Assembly: GCF_001458175.1 (NCBI RefSeq)
Contig: NZ_CYPW01000040.1
Coordinates: 63,800 to 127,799 of the forward strand
From: Shimia marina
Lineage (GTDB): Bacteria > Pseudomonadota > Alphaproteobacteria > Rhodobacterales > Rhodobacteraceae
Direction: 5' to 3'
DNA: 64,000 nucleotides
Position numbers and translations under genes: made by a program. Under the pieces are notes generated by a model. It was not told the DNA's origin. It searched no databases and saw only the letters and a list, made by a program, of their open reading frames with translations. This document shows positions 6,052 through 9,373 of the stretch, piece by piece (position 1 is the stretch's first letter; every line of letters starts with the position of its first letter).

Positions 6052-6942
6052 TTACTTTGACGCGTGGCGTGCCTCTCGCCAAACCAGAATGGCTGCGGCG
6101 CAGAGGATGAGTGCTGTGCCGATCCAGCTCACGCGGTCGGGAATTACACCGAAGATGATGGCATCATAGAGCGCCGCGAAGGCCAGAGCGGCGTAGAAAA
6201 ACGGCGCGACAAAGCTGGCGTCGGCGAGACGCATGGCATTGATGAAACAGGTTTGCGCAGTGGCCATCAAGAGCCCGATGCCTGCAAGCCCTGCCCATTG
6301 AGCGGGCGTGGGAGTTTGCCAGACAAAAATCACCACAGCAGAGGCGATGGTGAGTCCCAGCGCGTTGTTGATCAGCAGGATTTGAAAAGGGCGCTCCCGG
6401 CCCGTGAGTTTTTTCATGAAGATGACCTCGCCGCCCAAAAAACAAGCCGCGCAGAGGGCCAGAATGGCGCCAAGTTCCAGCGCGCCTGCACCGGGGCGGG
6501 TGAGGACCATGGCCCCCGTGAAGGCCAGTGCGGCGGAGCCCCAGCGCCATGGGCCGATCTTTTCGCCCAAAAAAGGAATCGCGAGCAACATGCCCACCAC
6601 AGGGTTGAGGAAGCTGATCGCGGTGGCGTCTGAAAGTGGGATAAAGGCGGCGGCTGCGAACATGAGTGTCACACCGCCCCAGCCCAGAGAAGATCGGCCG
6701 ATATGCAGCTTCCAATTGGGGCGTTGCAGTGTAGGTCGTAGGATCATCGCCGCAGTTGCAAAGCCCAGAAAGGCAAACAGGAACCGCCCGTGGCTGATCT
6801 GTAGCGGGTGCATCGCAGGGCCCAGCGTGCCTGTGCCGAGCGCCTTGGCCAGCAGTGTTGTGCCAGCGACAAAGGCGGAGGCCAAAAGGGTCAACCCAGC
6901 AGCGAGCGGCGGGTTTTGGGAGGTCGCGGCATTATTATCCAT
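6052..6942 (-). CDS. DMT-superfamily (EamA) transporter
   Basis: About 296 aa, ten predicted hydrophobic segments in two five-helix EamA repeats. A Pro-X-Leu-X-Gly-Glu-Lys type loop (FLGEKIGPWRW) lies between helices, as in drug/metabolite exporters. The substrate cannot be told from sequence. Start ATG 6942 was chosen because the 29 codons upstream in the same frame look non-coding; no clear RBS is seen at either start. It diverges from the argD leader, so 6943-7089 must hold promoters for both directions. Confidence 0.85.
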   Translation of the reverse strand: MDNNAATSQNPPLAAGLTLLASAFVAGTTLLAKALGTGTLGPAMHPLQISHGRFLFAFLGFATAAMILRPTLQRPNWKLHIGRSSLGWGGVTLMFAAAAFIPLSDATAISFLNPVVGMLLAIPFLGEKIGPWRWGSAALAFTGAMVLTRPGAGALELGAILALCAACFLGGEVIFMKKLTGRERPFQILLINNALGLTIASAVVIFVWQTPTPAQWAGLAGIGLLMATAQTCFINAMRLADASFVAPFFYAALAFAALYDAIIFGVIPDRVSWIGTALILCAAAILVWREARHASK

Positions 6943-7089
6943 GCTGGTGTTATGGGGGGTGTTGGCAGGGGGAGCAAGGTGTCGGAAATCATGCCCGATT
7001 TGGTGACCTCTTTGCGCAAAAAGCGCCAAAATGCGCCGTATCGAAATATAGGGGTTCCCATTTGGATGTTTTCATTCTAGGGAGGACAC

Positions 7090-7143
7090 ATGATCAAACG
7101 CTGCGATATCCTTCACCTGCGACGCCGACGCCTGACCGCGTAA
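7090..7143 (+). CDS. Putative arginine leader peptide upstream of argD
   Basis: 17-codon ORF encoding MIKRCDILHLRRRRLTA, with a near-consensus Shine-Dalgarno (AGGGAGGA, 7079-7086) 3 nt before ATG 7090. Codons 11-14 are CGA CGC CGA CGC, four consecutive Arg, and a fifth Arg is at position 4. It ends 113 nt before argD, an arginine biosynthesis gene. Such end-product-codon runs are the hallmark of ribosome-mediated attenuation leaders (trp, his, ilv). Two of the Arg codons are CGA, which could accentuate stalling. I know of no described leader for argD in this group; expression and function are inference from sequence alone. Confidence 0.6.
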   Translation: MIKRCDILHLRRRRLTA

Positions 7144-7256
7144 CCGGCCCTTGATCTCTTGCGCCACAAACTGGCGCAAACATTCTCAAAAACATTGACG
7201 CAAACGCCTCCTGTGATGCAGTCACTGAGGCTCATGATCTAAAGAGGAAGATCGAT
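7144..7256 (+). promoter_or_regulatory. argD 5' leader with hairpins (candidate attenuator)
   Basis: Directly after the leader-peptide stop the RNA is C-rich and G-poor. It then forms a perfect 8-bp hairpin (7159-7166 with 7172-7179, loop CAAAC). A weaker stem occurs at 7207-7230, and a 5-bp stem GATCT/AGATC (7236-7240 with 7249-7253) places the argD Shine-Dalgarno AAAGAGGA in its loop. No U-tract follows the strong hairpin, so a classic intrinsic attenuator is not seen. Rho-dependent attenuation or RBS masking would fit better. All of this is inference from base pairing. Confidence 0.45.
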
Positions 7257-8438
7257 ATGATCCCGTCTATTTTGCCGACGTACAACCGCGCCCCGCTCAC
7301 TTTTGAGAGCGGTGAGGGAAGCTGGATGATCGAGGCGGATGGCCGACGTTTTCTGGATCTGGGCGCGGGTATTGCAGTGAACGTGCTTGGACATGCCAAT
7401 CCGGTGCTTGTTGAGGCGTTGACGGCGCAGGCGGGTAAGCTCTGGCATGTTTCAAATCTCTACAACATCACACAGCAACAGGCGCTTGCAGATAAGCTGG
7501 TGGCCAGCACATTTGCGGATACGGTGTTTTTCACAAATTCCGGCACAGAGTGCTGCGAGCTGGCGGTGAAAATGGCACGCAAATACTGGTACGATAAGGG
7601 GCAGCCCGAGCGCGTGGAGATCATCGCTTTTGAAGGGGCGTTTCATGGCCGCAGCTCCGCTGGTATCGCTGCGGCGGGTTCTGAGAAACTGGTTGCAGGC
7701 TTTGGCCCTTTATTGCCGGGCTTCCACCAGGTGCCTTGGGGGGATGTTGATGCGGCCGAAGCGCTGGTTGGTGACCAGACCGCGGCGATTATTGTCGAGC
7801 CGGTACAGGGGGAGGGCGGTATTCGCCCGCTGCCAGATGCGGATCTTAAGGCACTGCGGGCGCTCTGTGATGCGGCGGGCATTCTGCTGATCATGGATGA
7901 GGTGCAATGCGGTGTGGGCCGGACCGGCAAGCTTTTTGCCCATGAATGGGCCGGTGGGACACCAGATATCATGATGGTGGCCAAAGGCATTGGTGGCGGT
8001 TTTCCACTGGGCTGTGTTCTGGCGACGGAAGAGGCTGCAAGTGGCATGGTCGCAGGCACGCATGGGTCAACCTATGGCGGAAACCCCTTGGCCTGTGCCG
8101 TGGGTGGCGCGGTTATGGACATGGTCGCCAATGATGCATTTCTAGGCGAGGTGAACCGCAAATCCGGACTTTTGCGTCAGAAACTTGAAGGTCTGGTTGC
8201 GGCCCATCCGGAAGTGTTTGAAGAGGTACGCGGTGCAGGGCTCATGTTGGGGCTCAAATGCGCAAAAGTGACCTGTGGCGATGTGGTGGCTGCCGGGTAT
8301 GACAATGAGGTTGTGACGGTGCCAGCGGCGGACAATGTTGTGCGTCTGTTGCCGCCGTTGACAATCAGTGACGAGGAAATTGCCGAGGCCGTGGCGCGGC
8401 TGGAGAAGGCGGCGTCCCAGTTGGACGCAGGGAAATAA
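7257..8438 (+). CDS. argD: Acetylornithine aminotransferase
   Basis: 393 aa, PLP-dependent class III aminotransferase. It converts N-acetylglutamate semialdehyde to N-acetylornithine in arginine biosynthesis. The PLP-binding Lys lies in [12 protein letters not shown] (about K243), the cofactor Asp/Gln segment is [15 protein letters not shown], and [14 protein letters not shown] is typical of ArgD. RBS AAAGAGGAAG. It is followed after 11 nt by argF, so the pair is an arginine operon. The upstream Arg-rich leader peptide suggests control by arginyl-tRNA charging. It might also serve in lysine synthesis (DapC activity), as known for some ArgD enzymes. Confidence 0.93.
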
Positions 8439-8449
8439 GGACCATAGCG

Positions 8450-9373
8450 ATGAAACATTTTCTGGATATCAACACCACCGATGTGGCCGACCTGCGCGGC
8501 ATGATTGAAAGCGCTAAGACCATCAAGAATGCGCGCAACGGACGCCCCAAGGGCGCGCTTGACGACGATCTTCCGCTGAAAGATCACATGGTGGCGCTTA
8601 TTTTTGAGAAGCCTTCAACGCGGACGCGTGTGAGCTTTGATGTGGGTGTGCGTCAGATGGGCGGGCGGACCATGGTGCTGTCAGGCTCAGAGATGCAGTT
8701 GGGTCATGGAGAAACTGTGGCGGACACGGCAAAGGTGTTGAGCCGCTATGTGGATCTGATCATGATCCGGACCTTTGAAGAGGCGACGCTGCTGGAGATG
8801 GCGGAAAATGCCACGGTTCCTGTGATCAATGGTCTGACCAACCGCACGCACCCTTGTCAGATCATGGCGGACATCCTGACCTTTGAAGAAAAGCGCGGCC
8901 CCATCGCGGGCAAAAAAGTGGTCTGGTCTGGGGACGGTAACAATGTGTTTGCCAGCTTTGCCCATGCGGCGGGGCAATTTGGCTTTGACTTGACCTTTAC
9001 TGGTCCGCAGACCCTCGACCCCGAAGCTCTGTTTATTGAAGAAGCGCGTGCCAAGGGCGTCAAGGTGGAGATCGAGCGCGATCCGATCAAGGCGGTACAG
9101 GGCGCTGATCTGGTGGTGACGGACACATGGGTGAGCATGCATGATGCGGCCTCCATGCGGGAGCGTCGGCACAATCAACTGCGCCCCTATCAGGTCAACG
9201 AAGATCTTATGAAAGAAGCTGCGGATGACGCGCTGTTCATGCACTGTCTGCCGGCGCATCGCAATGAAGAGGCCACTGACGCAGTGATGGATGGCCCGGC
9301 CTCTGTGATCTTTGATGAGGCGGAAAACCGGCTGCATGCGCAAAAGGCAGTAATGAAATGGTGTCTGACGTAA
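8450..9373 (+). CDS. argF: Ornithine carbamoyltransferase
   Basis: 307 aa cytosolic enzyme making citrulline from ornithine and carbamoyl phosphate. The carbamoyl-phosphate motif STRTR is at about residues 56-60 and the ornithine-binding HCLPAHR at about 265-271, both intact. Length is normal for an anabolic OTC. It starts 11 nt after argD with its own ATG and a terminator follows at 9400, giving a two-gene argDF operon. Confidence 0.96.

Follow-up and report, generated by a model that had tools for sequence, protein, structure and literature searches.

Does the short open reading frame upstream of argD in Shimia marina, with its run of arginine codons, couple arginine supply to the expression of the arginine genes that follow it? 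A preliminary description of the window (the whole 64,000-nucleotide stretch of DNA that was analysed) had proposed arginine attenuation of argDF. We find this to be the best reading of the locus, with the Arg run conserved in 113 of 142 genera, and consider it probable that the leader acts in cis as a ribosome-mediated attenuator through which arginine controls argD(F). The leader, carried by bacteria of the Roseobacter group, is present in most of the related genera sampled and therefore very probably senses arginine shortage without ArgR, the usual arginine repressor.

ArgR (PF01316) was found in none of 149 Rhodobacteraceae genomes, that of the window included, and in nine of 14 control genomes. 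A survey of regulons describes ArgR as conserved in gammaproteobacteria but lacking in every other proteobacterial class that it analysed (PMC5343134; papers identified by PMC number are, here and below, cited from extracts). The absence of ArgR gives an Arg leader a reason to exist.

Organization of the locus

The leader and the genes downstream of it are arranged as follows.

7090..7143, forward strand: leader ORF MIKRCDILHLRRRRLTA, 17 codons, assigned from the sequence and by comparison with relatives
7120..7131, forward strand: sensor Arg run CGA CGC CGA CGC, codons 11-14 of the leader
7244..7249, forward strand: argD Shine-Dalgarno sequence GAGGAA, assigned from the sequence and from its recurrence in the family
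7257..8438, forward strand: argD, acetylornithine transaminase (profile NF002325, E 1.4e-182)
8450..9373, forward strand: argF, ornithine carbamoyltransferase (TIGR00658, E 8e-108)

The leader reads ATG ATC AAA CGC TGC GAT ATC CTT CAC CTG CGA CGC CGA CGC CTG ACC GCG TAA. It holds five Arg codons, four of them consecutive, and its stop lies 113 nt before the argD ATG; all of this is as first described. The gap between argD and argF is 11 nt and the two genes likely share one operon. Curated Rfam models, T-box or other, gave no match to positions 6900-7400 up to an E value of 1.

In this genome the 350 nt upstream of each of argG and argJ contain no short ORF with an Arg-Arg pair; only argD, of the three loci compared, seems to have such a leader. 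The sequence CGACGYCGACGY is found twice in the 4.0-Mb genome, the second place, viewed by eye, being locus L338.

Conservation of the leader in the Rhodobacteraceae

The family sample comprised 142 Rhodobacteraceae genomes with argD, one per genus, with the window's own excluded; the argD upstream regions of 80 named loci formed a further sample. A leader was scored strictly as an ATG-initiated ORF of 8-25 codons including the stop, placed 95-260 nt 5' of argD and containing an in-frame CGA followed by CGA, CGC or CGT (CGA-CGH). Such a leader is present in 113 of the 142 genera, against a mean of 1.8 and a maximum of five in 40 rounds of dinucleotide shuffling. When a -10-like TA is also demanded the count is 101 (shuffles: mean 0.2, maximum 3), and it is again 101 when any Arg codons are allowed and the -10 is kept. 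Among other alphaproteobacterial families the leader occurs in three of 54 genomes (shuffles: mean 0.5, maximum 2), and in none together with a -10-like TA; these 54 were taken from 125 non-family genomes with argD, mostly by highest argD score and not at random. The named loci carry it in 78 of 80 cases.

Relative to the ATG associated with the -10 element, the run falls into the three frames in the ratio 98:1:2 (n = 101), at start-to-run spacings of 18-60 nt. The peptide bodies drift and share little while the Arg run is kept, which is the pattern that the alignment proposed in the preliminary description was meant to reveal. Recurrence far above the shuffles, together with the codon bias described below, rules out a chance ORF. 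On sequence grounds the leader appears to be an ORF rich in codons for the end product of the pathway, as is characteristic of ribosome-mediated attenuators.

The strict test is failed by 29 of the 142 genera, and by 41 when the -10 is required. Fourteen of the 29 were viewed by eye: L228 has an Arg leader with a GTG start, L255 has a run of CGC CGC CGA, and the upstream region of L202 is short because its contig ends there. Of the two misses among the named loci, L049 has the run CGA AGA CGC and L061 is without a leader.

Outside the run, family leaders often have His-Ile (CAT ATC) as codons 6-7, the corresponding positions 7105-7110 of the window being GAT ATC. His at codon 6 (27/113) and Ile at codon 7 (37/113) are the commonest residues there, so that conservation of the pair is partial.

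Codon choice in the Arg run

In the 113 leaders, for which a CGA-CGH pair was required, the runs contain CGA 198 times, CGC 172, CGT 17, CGG twice and AGG once; CGA, CGC and CGT thus supply 387 of 390 codons and CGG with AGR only three. The first codon of the run is CGA in 107 of these 113 leaders. Dropping the codon requirement leaves CGA at 178 of 360 run codons (49%), CGG at 0.6% and CGA as first codon in 95 of 101. We took the background from 38 ORFs of the window, in which CGA makes up 7.0% of Arg codons, and from 80 argD genes, in which CGA accounts for 7.6% and CGG for 22.8%. At 78 of 78 loci the CGA share is higher in the run than in argD, a comparison in which detection itself required CGA; CGG is absent from the 248 run codons of the 78 named loci.

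Thirty of the 41 tRNA loci were scanned, and tRNA-Arg species with anticodons ACG, CCG and CCT are present among them. The ACG species has inosine at the wobble base and decodes CGU and CGC and, inefficiently, CGA. The Arg run looks as if it sensed one tRNA, at the codon which that tRNA reads most slowly. Published evidence on codon identity points both ways. Stalling in the Salmonella his leader was greater at CGA than at CGC or CGU (PMC4046918), whereas rare and frequent Arg codons were equally effective in the Salmonella speF leader orf34 (PMC6386406), so that the use of CGA need not matter.

Promoters and the predicted leaderless start

7055..7083, forward strand: promoter P1, with -35-like TTCCCA (7055-7060), a 17-nt spacer and -10-like TAGGGA (7078-7083), the hexamers being our own assignment
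7090..7090, forward strand: predicted transcription start, the A of the leader ATG

The base frequencies at the corresponding positions of the 113 family leaders include T at 0.87 in the -35 region, A or T at 0.96 at -12 and A at 0.62 at -11, and a C lies immediately 5' of the leader ATG in 82%. A Shine-Dalgarno-like motif occurs 4-14 nt 5' of the leader in three of the 113, compared with 109 of 113 for the 4-16 nt 5' of argD. Covariation with downstream sequence is strong for leader nucleotides 1-14, weak for promoter positions -14 to -1 and absent for -30 to -16. The distance from the -10 element, the C at -1, the scarcity of Shine-Dalgarno motifs and the limits of covariation together suggest, from sequence comparison, that the leader mRNA is leaderless and starts at its own ATG.

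The GGGAGG of the window sits between the -10 element and the predicted start and is thus probably outside the mRNA. It had initially been taken for a strong Shine-Dalgarno sequence of the leader; within the family it is a local exception, and we reject Shine-Dalgarno-led initiation as a conserved feature of these leaders. As a separate observation, the sequence GGGGTTCCCATTTG at the P1 -35 (window positions 7051-7064) is almost identical in several Shimia loci.

A second candidate promoter lies closer to argD.

7195..7224, forward strand: P2, with TTGACG (7195-7200), 18 nt and CAGTCA (7219-7224), identified by recurrence of TTGAC
7206..7231, forward strand: S3, an inverted repeat GCCTC/GAGGC around the P2 -10, identified by covariation

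Of the 142 family upstream regions, 130 have TTGAC no more than 130 nt from argD (115 no more than 72 nt), as do 41 of 54 from other families. The element resembles a class-wide argD promoter of the form TTGACA-N17/18-GATACT. In the Rhodobacteraceae its -10 takes the form CACCAAT/CACTCA, inside the covarying inverted repeat S3 (z 6.2; in a second test 5.5, with a control of 0.6). In other families a comparable pairing gives z 2.5, not above its own control of 2.3.

RNA structure and covariation

For the predicted transcript 7090-7194 the folding energy is -30.8 kcal/mol (z -4.97, reached by none of 200 shuffles), and the fold consists of three named elements and a small hairpin within the ORF; the longer stretch 7080-7290 has a folding z of -1.98.

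7092..7156, forward strand: P0, the start-codon helix, in which GATCAA (7092-7097) pairs with TTGATC (7151-7156), present in the minimum-free-energy and centroid folds and indicated by covariation
7124..7148, forward strand: S1, in which the Arg-codon arm GCCGACGC (7124-7131) pairs with GCGT (7138-7141) and CGGC (7145-7148), flanking the stop codon, from the fold
7159..7179, forward strand: S2, a perfect 8-bp hairpin TTGCGCCA-CAAAC-TGGCGCAA, from the sequence
7180..7194, forward strand: an unpaired stretch without G, ACATTCTCAAAAACA, a possible Rho entry site, from the sequence and the predicted fold

Covariation was assessed by comparing the best pairing of matched arms with that of arms swapped between genera in 200 permutations. 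The main tests used 100 of the 113 leaders, selected for a TTGAC no more than 72 nt from argD. The strongest signal is that of P0, with z 11.0 for pairing of the first 14 nt of the leader with the segment 3' of the stop (0/200 permutations). Its controls gave z 1.9 for promoter positions -14 to -1 (reached in 5/200), -0.5 for -30 to -16 and -1.1 for leader nucleotides 15-28. A strong P0 helix is present in 39 of the 100 leaders, where 11.5 are expected, and 38 different 5' strands occur among those 39.

S1 covaries with z 5.7 and 4.1 in two tests and 1.6 when a wider 3' region is used. It appears to be a conserved hairpin with the regulatory codons in one arm, as attenuators have, though on weaker grounds than P0. 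We looked for alternative partners of the 3' strand of P0, of the run and of the stop region and found none, all values being z 1.3 or below, which leaves a switch between two states conjectural. A weak hint of one, a match between the region after the run and one half of S2 (z 2.6), comes from windows that may overlap.

RNAalifold was applied to 20 Shimia-like leaders from the 80 named loci and the window, chosen by us for similar length. It returned nine pairs, missed P0 and paired the GCGT of the stop region with the 3' arm of S2, a pairing that may be genuine. In our opinion the variable distance of its 3' strand, and the misalignment of that strand, caused P0 to be missed.

The proposed mechanism and its alternatives

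Our model is as follows. P1 would make the A of the leader ATG the first transcribed base, leaving a bare 5' end for a ribosome to load on. When charged tRNA-Arg ACG is available the ribosome would pass the Arg codons and leave. The leader would then close on itself, with S1 inside P0, hiding the start codon and stopping further initiation; P0 and S1 would constitute the arginine-sufficient fold. On the ribosome-free, C-rich and G-poor RNA, transcription would end prematurely, ahead of argD, with Rho as the most likely agent. When the charged tRNA is scarce, the ribosome would stall at CGA and keep S1 open, and the polymerase would continue into argDF. Basal expression would be supplied by P2.

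As regards Rho, we note the composition of the 60 nt before TTGAC, where the median C:G ratio is 1.83 for the 100 genera with a leader, as compared with 1.21 for 28 family members whose upstream regions lack the leader ORF and 1.10 for 50 members of other families. This C excess is compatible with Rho entry. The folding of 100 leaders with positions blocked as by a ribosome altered mainly P0, S1 and the pairing of the stop region. A ribosome placed on the Arg codons lowers the S1 index from 0.94 to 0.00 and the P0 index from 0.61 to 0.33; for one placed at the stop the two values are 0.03 and 0.40. One estimate of ours counts against the attenuator, namely that in long forms of the leader a stalled ribosome should not quite cover the 5' strand of P0.

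A stricter version of this mechanism is that each transcript gives a single reading of Arg-tRNA charging, after which the sensor locks itself. Only the first ribosome would read the Arg codons, since the RNA would begin with its start codon, which is later buried in P0; the RNA that buries it would be made about 50-100 nt downstream of the start codon. We put this forward tentatively and rather doubt it. If true, such a one-shot design would differ from leaders initiated at a Shine-Dalgarno sequence and would be the main arginine control of a family without ArgR.

We weighed two other routes from the leader to argD. The preliminary description had favoured an RBS-masking or Rho-based switch over a classic terminator, in view of the missing U-tract. 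Masking draws on a GATC..GATC stem around the argD RBS at 7236-7253, which is indeed present in the window with the RBS in its loop and is shared by 11 of 26 Shimia rows (the window counted twice), yet it occurs in only two of 113 family leaders. Moreover, the argD Shine-Dalgarno and start covary with no part of the leader (z at most 0.9), and accessibility of the Shine-Dalgarno stays at 0.39-0.40 at all simulated ribosome positions, which makes output through the argD RBS unlikely as far as the folding model goes. That leader folding masks the RBS in a translational switch is accordingly the account to which we give least credence, and it can be set aside almost entirely. A classic intrinsic-terminator attenuator, with S2 as the terminator, seems to us very unlikely as well. 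The perfect hairpin reported earlier does exist in the window, and the RNAalifold pairing of the stop region with S2 hints at a competitor, but the hairpin is not conserved: its 8-bp type is found in two of 100 leaders, covariation of the S2 region is weak (z 2.1), and a test of the stop region against S2 gives z -1.5. Between the stop and TTGAC, 73 of the 100 have a perfect hairpin of one kind or another, 5 bp or longer. Viewed by eye, S2 is followed by no U-tract in the window, just as had been noted, and terminator-like sites with a U-tract occur in five of 100 family leaders, above the 0-3 of ten shuffles; with so few leaders, and none in the window, we reject a U-tract terminator as the general case.

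Two further explanations concern what is sensed and where the leader acts. The nascent peptide might itself arrest the ribosome in response to arginine or ornithine, with codon identity secondary. The speF leader peptide, elsewhere called SpeFL, is an ornithine sensor. In favour of a peptide sensor are the common His and Ile at codons 6 and 7, short forms that read ..HIRR, and the core HIRRT*HIMM with Arg-dependent control in speF orf34 (PMC6386406). The residues before the run drift, however, and by eye the His-Ile pair keeps a fixed distance from the 5' end and not from the run; the preference for CGA and avoidance of CGG are also unexpected from selection on the peptide alone. We regard a peptide sensor as improbable, if somewhat less so than the terminator. 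Alternatively, mRNA decay or an action in trans could be the main way in which the leader works, with P0 as a shield for the 5' end of a small RNA. The paired 5' end would suit this, and there are precedents in S. meliloti rnTrpL, a trans-acting leader RNA whose 5' end is its ATG (PMC7298713), and in the speF leader, which controls decay by RNase G (PMC6386406). A conserved trans partner would be expected to hold its peptide and RNA constant, and here both drift. As the principal role of the leader this has, in our judgement, as slim a chance as the terminator, and it is compatible with the attenuator reading.

We therefore retain the ribosome-mediated attenuator. Its sensing side appears well supported by sequence comparison, which covers the ORF, its frame, codon choice, the geometry of the 5' end, P0 and, less strongly, S1; we infer the transcription start, stalling, termination, the part of Rho and the direction of the response.

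A side observation concerns other alphaproteobacterial families, in which seven of 54 genomes (L143, L146, L156, L158, L167, L285 and L298) have terminator-like hairpins with a U-tract just 5' of argD, against 0-3 in ten shuffles. They may represent another kind of argD attenuator, one that lacks an Arg leader.

Significance and comparison with known systems

The leader offers a concrete, widespread and testable answer to how arginine synthesis might be controlled in alphaproteobacteria that lack ArgR. It is also a natural case in which codon choice looks tuned to one tRNA, and its covarying start-codon helix suggests how a leader can switch itself off. The preliminary description knew of no Arg leader for argD in Alphaproteobacteria, and none described for argD appeared among the matches listed by our full-text searches of open-access papers.

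Arginine is sensed at the RNA level elsewhere by other means. T-boxes bind tRNA directly, without a translated leader. The system proposed here would share with them an RNA-level response to the charging of Arg-tRNA, and differs in its translated leader and in the lack of an Rfam match. Before arginine operons of Actinobacteria, according to the extract used, no RNA element was seen, and arginine T-boxes are mentioned from elsewhere (PMC1262725). Two further papers, PMC5089854 and PMC3616915, concern other leaders or promoters in the parts available.

The closest case with Arg codons is speF orf34, which likewise has consecutive Arg codons in a leader ORF. There the Arg codons sense arginine, low arginine favours expression, and Rho and long-range structure are involved (PMC6386406). 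It differs in that it precedes a gammaproteobacterial ornithine decarboxylase gene of polyamine synthesis, encodes a conserved peptide (DUF2618) and has had RBS masking and the action of RNase G demonstrated (PMC6386406). We do not assign the present leader to the orf34 (DUF2618) group since, by eye, its peptide body drifts and the gene is argD and not speF.

Within the Rhodobacterales the nearest published case, on the extract consulted, is uORFC-8-2, of the same order, which lies 5' of cysS, has tandem cognate codons within a first stem, as here, and for which attenuation has been proposed (PMC8632094). Its codons are for Cys, its gene is cysS and its two stems end in an intrinsic terminator with a U run (PMC8632094); argD does not occur in the main text of that paper. 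In S. meliloti the trpL leader ORF is leaderless, its ATG being the 5' end of the RNA (PMC7298713, PMC10117765). It resembles our system as an alphaproteobacterial leader ORF, with the ATG at the 5' end (predicted here), before a biosynthetic gene. It differs in responding to Trp, and in this transcription attenuator the peptide and the RNA have actions in trans as well.

The trp, his, ilv and thr attenuators have a short ORF with codons for the end product before a biosynthetic gene, these codons lying inside a hairpin. The argD leader is like them in both respects. It is unlike them in its predicted leaderless start, in its start-codon helix and, in the window, in having neither a U-tract terminator nor a demonstrated antiterminator. 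We conclude that the system is a known type of attenuator in a new form, defined by arginine, argD and a predicted leaderless start.
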